Shown here: piece by piece, positions 1 to 55,978 of the stretch
How positions within the stretch are numbered: the first letter of the stretch is position 1
Layout: each line of letters opens with the position of its first letter
Origin: Isoptericola luteus
Lineage (GTDB): Bacteria; Actinomycetota; Actinomycetes; Actinomycetales; Cellulomonadaceae
NCBI RefSeq assembly: GCF_020297055.1
Contig: NZ_JAIXCQ010000009.1
Location: 124,001 to 188,000, forward strand
Length of the DNA stretch: 64,000 nt
Direction of reading: 5' to 3'
The notes under the pieces: model-generated
What the model was told of the DNA's origin: nothing
The model's input: the letters and a program-made list of their open reading frames with translations, nothing else
Databases searched by the model: none
Position numbers and translations under genes: made by a program

Positions 1-33
1 ACCGGGACCAGACCGCTCGATGGATCGTTGAGC

Positions 34-55135: not shown

Positions 55136-55978
55136 TCAGGCGGGCGCCCGACCGGTCACGCCGTCGAGCCAGGACCGGGCGGCGGGGGGCAGCTCGCCCC
55201 AGTCGTCGATGGTGTCGAGGTCGGCGGCGGTACCGGGCCGCCGCACGACGACGCCCGGCAGGCCCACCCGGGCAGCCTCCGCGAGGTGGGCGGCGCGGGA
55301 ACCGGTGCCGAACCGGAACCGGAACGGCGACACCGCCGGCACGAGCAGCAGGTTCGTGCCGGACCCGTGCCGGTCGGTGGCCACGACGACGGGTGTCAGG
55401 TCGGCAGTCCGTGATCGGGTCGGCGGTCCGGGCTGCCGCTCTGATCCCGGACCGCCGCGCCGATCGGGTGGCGACGCGGCGGCGAGCACGGCGGCGACGT
55501 CGTCGGGCGACAGCAGGGGGAGGTCGGCGTGCGCGACGAGCACCCGTGCGGCGCCGAGCGCGACGGCCCGCTCCCGCCCGACGTCGACCGCGCCGTCGAG
55601 CCCGGGGCGCTCGCGCGGCTGGGCGACCACCGCGACGGGGCCGATCAGGTCGGCAGTTCGTGATCGGGTCGGCAGTCCGGACTGCCGCTCTGATCCCGTA
55701 CTGCCGACCTGATCGCCGTCGAGCCCGAGGGCCTCGGTGGTGAAGGGCACGTCGGCGGTGACGACGACGACGCGGTCGACGCCGGGAGCGGCGCCGAGCA
55801 CCCCGACCACGTGCCGGGCGAGCGCGGCGACCAGCCGGCGCCGCGCGGGCGGGGCGAGCGCCGTCGCGAGCCGGGACTTGCCAGAGACGCCGTCGCGCAG
55901 GGGCACGACGGCGACGGTGCCACCCACGGCAGCACCTCGCGCGCGGCCGGCCACGTGGGGGGCCGCCTCGCCGGTCAC
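55136..55978 (-). CDS. fbiD: PEP/2-phospholactate guanylyltransferase (FbiD/CofC) with two palindromic insertions
   Basis: A 280-residue enzyme of F420 biosynthesis that activates phosphoenolpyruvate or 2-phospholactate with GTP. It has VAVVPLRDGVSGKSRLATAL, HADLPLLSPDDV and GSGTNLLLVPA. Two insertions (GSERQxGxPTRSRTADL) come from the repeats at 55394-55465 and 55643-55714. FbiD proteins I know are about 200-230 residues, so this one is longer. GTG 55978 overlaps the fbiA stop (GTGA), so the start is sure. A cofactor-donor role for the downstream fbiA product is known of the family. Confidence 0.9.
   Translation of the reverse strand: MTGEAAPHVAGRARGAAVGGTVAVVPLRDGVSGKSRLATALAPPARRRLVAALARHVVGVLGAAPGVDRVVVVTADVPFTTEALGLDGDQVGSTGSERQSGLPTRSRTADLIGPVAVVAQPRERPGLDGAVDVGRERAVALGAARVLVAHADLPLLSPDDVAAVLAAASPPDRRGGPGSERQPGPPTRSRTADLTPVVVATDRHGSGTNLLLVPAVSPFRFRFGTGSRAAHLAEAARVGLPGVVVRRPGTAADLDTIDDWGELPPAARSWLDGVTGRAPA
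55394..55465. repeat. in-frame palindromic repeat in fbiD, copy 1
   Basis: 72 bp, 24 codons, similar to copy 2 with about 9 mismatches. It reads in frame within fbiD and replaces nothing obvious. The inner palindrome is degraded compared with copy 2. Confidence 0.85.
55643..55714. repeat. in-frame palindromic repeat in fbiD, copy 2
   Basis: 72 bp with perfect 15-bp outer arms (GATCAGGTCGGCAGT at 55643-55657 and complement at 55700-55714). A 16-bp perfect inner palindrome (GGCAGTCCGGACTGCC at 55671-55686) lies inside. Reads in frame as 24 codons. It has a nested-hairpin form. Confidence 0.9.

Follow-up and report, generated by a model that had tools for sequence, protein, structure and literature searches.

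Two related palindromes lie inside the reading frame of fbiD (cofC) in Isoptericola luteus (genome G000), which raises the question of how such DNA came to be part of an enzyme gene and whether it belongs to a wider family. The gene occupies 55136..55927 on the minus strand of the window, the whole 64-kb stretch of DNA that was analysed, and its start codon is uncertain. Its product is assigned to the 2-phospho-L-lactate or phosphoenolpyruvate guanylyltransferase family by TIGR03552 (E 6e-33; 114 bits against a cut-off of 105), Pfam CofC (E 1e-11), and alignment with 25 relatives.

The inserts in fbiD

An earlier note on this DNA described two 72-bp palindromic units in the fbiD frame, and both are found there on the minus strand, each adding 24 codons in frame. 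The site-1 copy (55643..55714; covariance model 77.5 bits) encodes residues 72-95, DQVGSTGSERQSGLPTRSRTADLI, while the more decayed site-2 copy (55394..55465; 52 bits) encodes residues 155-178, DRRGGPGSERQPGPPTRSRTADLT; the two are 83% identical over 86 nt. The outer arms of the site-1 copy are perfect over 15 bp, as had been reported, but its inner palindrome, previously given as 16 bp, is perfect over 18 bp (55670..55687; CGGCAGTCCGGACTGCCG) and consists of two cores head to head, as seen in the sequence and by pattern search. In the frame used by fbiD, codons 7 and 17 are both TGA in the consensus of the I. luteus copies (copy L006), but GGA and CGA in the site-1 copy.

With arms of 36 bp, the site-1 copy is self-complementary without gaps at 31 of 36 positions and is the best centre in the window, while the site-2 copy (24 of 36) ranks fifth, below three unrelated palindromes that reach 25-26. 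The remaining high-scoring centres inspected in the window (23 to 26 of 36) are unrelated in sequence, and several are intergenic. Near 1760, 8673, 24444, and 41623 there are long intergenic palindromes of unrelated sequence that resemble ordinary terminator hairpins, and all but one of these have convergent genes on either side. The pattern GATCGGGTCGGCAGTCCGGACTGCCG, with up to three mismatches, has three matches in the window, where 100 shuffles give an expectation of zero.

Protein matches to FbiD of I. luteus were found in 26 of the 58 genomes searched. The flanking enzyme motifs, said in the earlier note to continue as normal, run on as they do in the 25 other aligned sequences (26 with I. 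luteus, one of them partial), and the comparison with relatives proposed there shows that in many of them each site is occupied by no more than a short loop and the inserts are absent. By alignment, site 1 holds a related peptide in G007, G008, G012, and G017 and a less clear one in G016 and G009, while site 2 holds one in G013. The covariance model identifies full-length copies in fbiD of I. luteus (the two above), G013 (76 bits), G017 (75), G008 (74), G007 (74), and G012 (48), with no match at the G009 fbiD locus; the G016 locus was outside that search. Site 1 of G009 fbiD has a different repeat unit, GTCGGTGCCTCCG. Chance similarity or an assembly artefact might in principle create such inserts, but six genomes from separate assemblies carry related ones and the window pattern is not expected in shuffled sequence; the independent assemblies effectively refute an artefact, and this explanation is hardly credible.

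The site-1 copy of I. luteus stops a few residues before the end of the copy in the G008 group, so the two may be separate insertions; one insertion plus a small indel may also account for the difference between I. luteus and the G007/G008 group. G011 is close to G007 and its fbiD lacks the insert, yet it keeps letters resembling both insert ends. In a weak alignment to 7p97, the sole related solved structure found, site 2 falls between neighbouring residues, with the preceding segment scoring 3.8 bits. Structure prediction of FbiD from the single sequence gave a mean pLDDT of 37.

A dispersed family and its surroundings

The earlier note had also proposed looking for other copies in the same genome, and 16 places were found in I. 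luteus: two in fbiD and 14 intergenic, counting one split copy once. In that copy (L021 1399-1546; C12:91168-91315), the split is at the centre, where some tens of bases intervene, with GCGGCAG(G/T)TCGA on either side. Antribacter gilvus has at least 40 places; 38 of 40 listed places were examined together with one more found locally, the two omitted being at contig ends. A covariance model built on 51 copies, partly from the very genomes searched and with rough E-values, matches 101 of the 200 genomes of the GTDB family Cellulomonadaceae, in 14 of 25 genera, with no more than 24 matches counted per genome. Within Isoptericola (GTDB sense) it matches 17 of 18 genomes, the one without a match being G009. 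The exact 18-base core occurs in 45 stretches of the species collection, 29 of which are from Isoptericola (9), Krasilnikoviella (1), Antribacter (12), Promicromonospora (1), Myceligenerans (2), a Promicromonosporaceae MAG (3), and Cellulomonas terrae (1); at E 1e-3 the longer profile recovers 28 of these 29. Unrelated organisms account for the remaining 16 stretches, which resemble chance matches, two of them matching the profile weakly. Phage carriage of the exact core, the only form searched there, is rejected or weakened, since none of the viral contigs contains it. A known Rfam family is likewise rejected or weakened for the element, as no model exceeded its gathering score at seven loci; the three sub-threshold matches were to microRNA precursor models only. 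The fbiD inserts are thus members of a dispersed palindromic family of 72-84 bp in Promicromonosporaceae and their neighbours (GTDB Cellulomonadaceae).

Surroundings were examined for 102 copies, with gene contexts from a home-made codon-score gene caller rather than annotation: 9 are in genes, 87 are intergenic, and 6 are at contig edges. There is no sign of a link between the element and F420 genes. In I. luteus the 14 intergenic copies lie between divergent (8), convergent (2), or co-directional (4) genes. The 39 copies of A. gilvus are convergent (14), co-directional (14), divergent (4), at contig edges (4), or in genes (3). Another 47 copies, from 26 genomes, were chosen as high-scoring matches rather than at random, leaving out one L270 copy and one at the L268 end; they comprise 21 convergent, 16 co-directional, and 4 divergent placements, 2 at edges, and 4 in genes. 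At one convergent gene pair (L098, L113, and the L108 locus), the terminal TGATC of the element provides stop codons in some species.

These placements bear on the proposal that the hairpins are selected, immobile functional elements, such as terminators, RNA-stability hairpins, or binding sites, and that copies in genes are by-products. Many copies lie directly behind stop codons, in the convergent and co-directional positions that predominate in A. gilvus and in the further genomes, and at one intergenic place between convergent genes six species have a copy (G007, G008, G017, G016, G013, and G005); there G011 has no model match and G001, G006, and G015 have nothing similar. In I. luteus, however, more than half of the intergenic copies separate divergent genes, and a terminator within a working gene is hard to explain. 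Although paired change between the arms is strong, as described below, mismatches in the copies within genes do not favour pairing in RNA, and identical copies occur at unrelated places. Selected immobile hairpins are an unlikely explanation for the family.

Several copies are old and vertically kept, while others look young. Two 80-bp copies at intergenic places in G011 (C1 and C7) are identical and the copy in tilS is one mismatch away, which suggests that they spread recently; diverged relatives of these copies occur elsewhere in G011 and in G016. Movement of the element is inferred from the identical copies. For 61 of 79 copies the nearest neighbour belongs to the same species, compared with 14 when labels are shuffled, but 49 of the 61 are from I. 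luteus and Antribacter, and the counts are 2 of 9 for G013 and 0 of 4 for G007. The copies of G007 and G008 at two orthologous places are 12 differences apart, while G007 copies differ from others in their own genome by 19-24; in G017, by contrast, copies resemble their own kind more (15-19 differences, compared with 20-27). The indications of concerted evolution are therefore mixed. Over 88 copies there is no clear target-site duplication, although a few short offsets beat their own 60 shuffles among 1352 combinations. In the one good comparison, at L264, alignments of G007 and G011 overlap by 10 nt, which could be a target duplication, but about 14 further bases differ. Three places compared in G011 gave no clean empty site, being blurred by other differences.

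The mover could be a RAYT (REP-associated tyrosine transposase), which would make the element one of the REP type. As is reported for REPs (PMC3733652), it is a small palindrome that lies mostly by gene ends and at times in frame in genes. The RAYT family PF01797, however, was found in 0 of 18 genomes of the genus, while 5 of 14 control genomes were positive, and the element lacks a GTAG or CGTC tag: over 88 copies there is no common end tag, the ends reading GATC, CGCGTG, or others. A REP moved by RAYT is thus rejected or at least weakened within the genus, and is very improbable as an account of the element.

Other repeats occur as well. Four Antribacter contig ends (L128, L152, L213, and L218) have palindrome copies cut at one same point by a sequence starting with TGTGATGTCTCAGGACATC; this resembles an insertion-sequence end, IS481-like, of a kind that would target the palindrome. 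Orthologous places in sister species have other units, including GAGGTAGGCGA in G016 (L339) and CGCTACCTCGCC in G001 (L235), and there may be several such palindromic or repeat families in these species.

Palindrome upkeep and inserts in other enzymes

An ungapped alignment of the 51 copies spans 72 columns. Each arm contains the core CGGCAGTTCG twice as direct copies, 19 bp apart with nine bases between cores, so that one strand could form a single hairpin of about 34 bp. The linkers vary by lineage, being similar to TGATCAG in I. luteus and to GCATGAT in Antribacter, and TCAGG(T/A)G(G/A)T in each of the eight genomes examined of genus g7; they remain self-complementary across lineages despite these differences. 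Four Antribacter loci (L222, L224, L225, and L226) carry copies of a second subfamily, in which the palindromic ends (GCGCACATCAC...GATGTGCGC) are longer and the linker is TCGTCGGAT, close to the Isoptericola G017 type.

Across the 34 pairs, 90% of cells are paired and 27 pairs have changes on both sides. Double-change cells number 267, where shuffles give 93.5 and slid partners 39-69; centres were picked for palindromy, which biases the test toward pairing, and the slid-partner controls offset this bias in part. The same is seen in coding sequence. In the copies within a PxpB-PxpC fusion from 11 species there are 55 double-change cells, compared with 24 in shuffles (maximum 34 in 500 shuffles; kinship ignored). 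The copies of G007 and G011 in this fusion are near-perfect palindromes that differ from each other in linker letters and amino acids, while in several other species the palindrome has decayed (18 to 25 of 30). Pairing in RNA as the reason for the palindrome is weakened by the 23 copies in genes: read in the mRNA sense, they have 27 G-T and 50 A-C mismatches, so RNA pairing is not favoured, although this is weak evidence because the copies share ancestry. The palindrome would then be kept at the level of DNA rather than RNA, and a DNA-binding protein, hairpin-templated repair, or conversion between copies may be the route.

Beyond fbiD, in-frame copies are present in six genes of related species, and in-gene inserts lie mostly between annotated domains. 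The Antribacter GH20 hexosaminidase has its insert after residue 101, following a Pfam GH20b match that ends at 95 (profile position 84 of 124) and preceding the catalytic domain, which begins at 178. In Antribacter CydC (TIGR02868, E 9e-158) the insert follows residue 311, after a membrane-domain match that is sub-threshold and ends at 272, and before the ATPase, which begins at 366. HypF of G220 has the insert between residues 395 and 431, and the PxpB-PxpC fusion of G011 and G013 has it between the two carboxyltransferase domains. The Antribacter penicillin amidase has the insert within the span of its single Pfam match. The PxpB-PxpC fusion is present in 17 of 18 genomes of the genus and the peptide in 13 of those 17, the exceptions being G002, G009, G012, and G017. 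In TilS of G011 the insert lies between residues 203 and 308; the coding score is low (2.5) immediately downstream, and the Pfam TilS domain nonetheless follows. TilS is usually essential, so its insert is at least probably tolerated, and host proteins in general would appear to tolerate the inserts. The linker of tilS in G009 has another repeat unit, GGTACGACCTCGCGACCG, the G009 loci with such units, here and at fbiD site 1, being L318 and L124.

The added peptide might itself be selected as a useful linker and copied between genes as a protein module. Seven of nine in-gene sites (fbiD site 1 counted twice) share one frame, which reads GSxxxxRQxxLPxRxRTAD, but two sites use another. Outside genes, too, frame 0 is the one most often open (66% of 164 strands, compared with 38% and 52% for the other frames), so the bias within genes is weak. 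The majority of copies are not in genes at all, and in the PxpB-PxpC fusion of G007 and G011 the DNA palindrome is kept while the amino acids change. Selection for the peptide is accordingly a highly doubtful origin for the inserts.

Relation to known repeats

Several known repeats resemble the element in part. Rickettsia palindromic elements (RPEs) are described as dispersed palindromic repeats, intergenic and in frame in conserved protein genes, with an unknown mobiliser (Ogata et al. 2000, 2002; PMC2229807, PMC10969869). The same accounts give lengths of 105-150 bp and several families in an intracellular alphaproteobacterium (PMC2229807, PMC10969869). As far as these descriptions go, the present element is likewise dispersed, intergenic and in frame, and encodes peptides in otherwise normal enzymes. 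It is set apart, by description alone, in being 72-84 bp, having two cores per arm, and occurring in GC-rich actinobacteria, and a smaller share of it is in genes (9 of the 102 examined). The earlier note had proposed an RPE-like palindromic element spreading through genes of an actinobacterium, and this is supported: the refuting conditions that it set, where checked, turned out in its favour, with other copies present in the genome and a short loop in FbiD of many relatives, and in-frame copies lie in six more genes. It is qualified by the intergenic majority of the copies examined, and movement itself is suggested by the identical copies.

REPs with GTAG or CGTC tags are described as small palindromes of 20-40 bp, mostly between convergent or co-directional genes, that at times provide stop codons and at times lie in genes, in linkers or loops; the CGTC class is said to be without RAYT, which goes with the GTAG class, and the phyla named there as bearing REPs do not include Actinobacteria (PMC3733652). 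The element resembles them, so described, as a small palindrome common in convergent and co-directional spacers that gives stop codons in some species, and differs in its greater length, its untagged ends, and the lack of RAYT in the 18 genomes of the genus. MITEs are short, have an inverted-repeat structure without coding for their own transposase, and include some in-frame gene fusions (PMC10969869, PMC2229807). On that description, the element shares inverted repeats at its ends, shortness, the absence of transposase coding, and in-frame fusions; unlike a MITE, it is nearly all inverted repeat with hardly any interior, and shows no clear target duplication.

A literature search at the level of result listings, covering few subscription papers, found no coding palindromes in actinobacteria of this group. 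Judging by their titles, reports by Ogata (2005) on Wolbachia and by Suyama (2005) on Methanocaldococcus jannaschii concern palindromic repeats that code for protein. The element is taken to be a new family, while in-frame palindromes as such are already described for Rickettsia and, in the form of REPs within genes, for other bacteria (PMC2229807, PMC10969869, PMC3733652).

The two fbiD inserts are quite probably copies of a non-autonomous mobile palindromic repeat of this family, similar in its workings to RPEs, which spreads mostly between genes, at times enters them, and remains in loops or linkers; the term non-autonomous palindromic element would label it by its behaviour. New copies would derive from existing ones and persist where harm is slight, mostly intergenic and occasionally in genes. 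The 72-bp core is a multiple of three, which makes it easier for an insertion to stay in frame, and copies in genes would persist where a loop or linker takes up the 24 or so added residues. Many copies then retain the palindrome through paired changes, coding sequence included. A further reading, more doubtful and offered tentatively, is that several enzymes have taken in the mobile palindrome as a lasting component and that its coding hairpin is kept by a DNA-level process, which may be hairpin-templated correction, conversion between copies, or the element's own machinery; the linkers of TilS, PxpB-PxpC, and FbiD would then follow the rules of the DNA palindrome over those of the protein.

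Domain models and annotation can be misled by inserts of this type. Rickettsia, which is intracellular and has a reduced genome, is the best-known source of protein-coding palindromes. A family in many species of GC-rich actinobacteria offers another, independent setting for the passage of repeat DNA into protein, and its orthologous copies with paired coding changes allow a direct test of the influence that a DNA hairpin may have on the linker of a protein.
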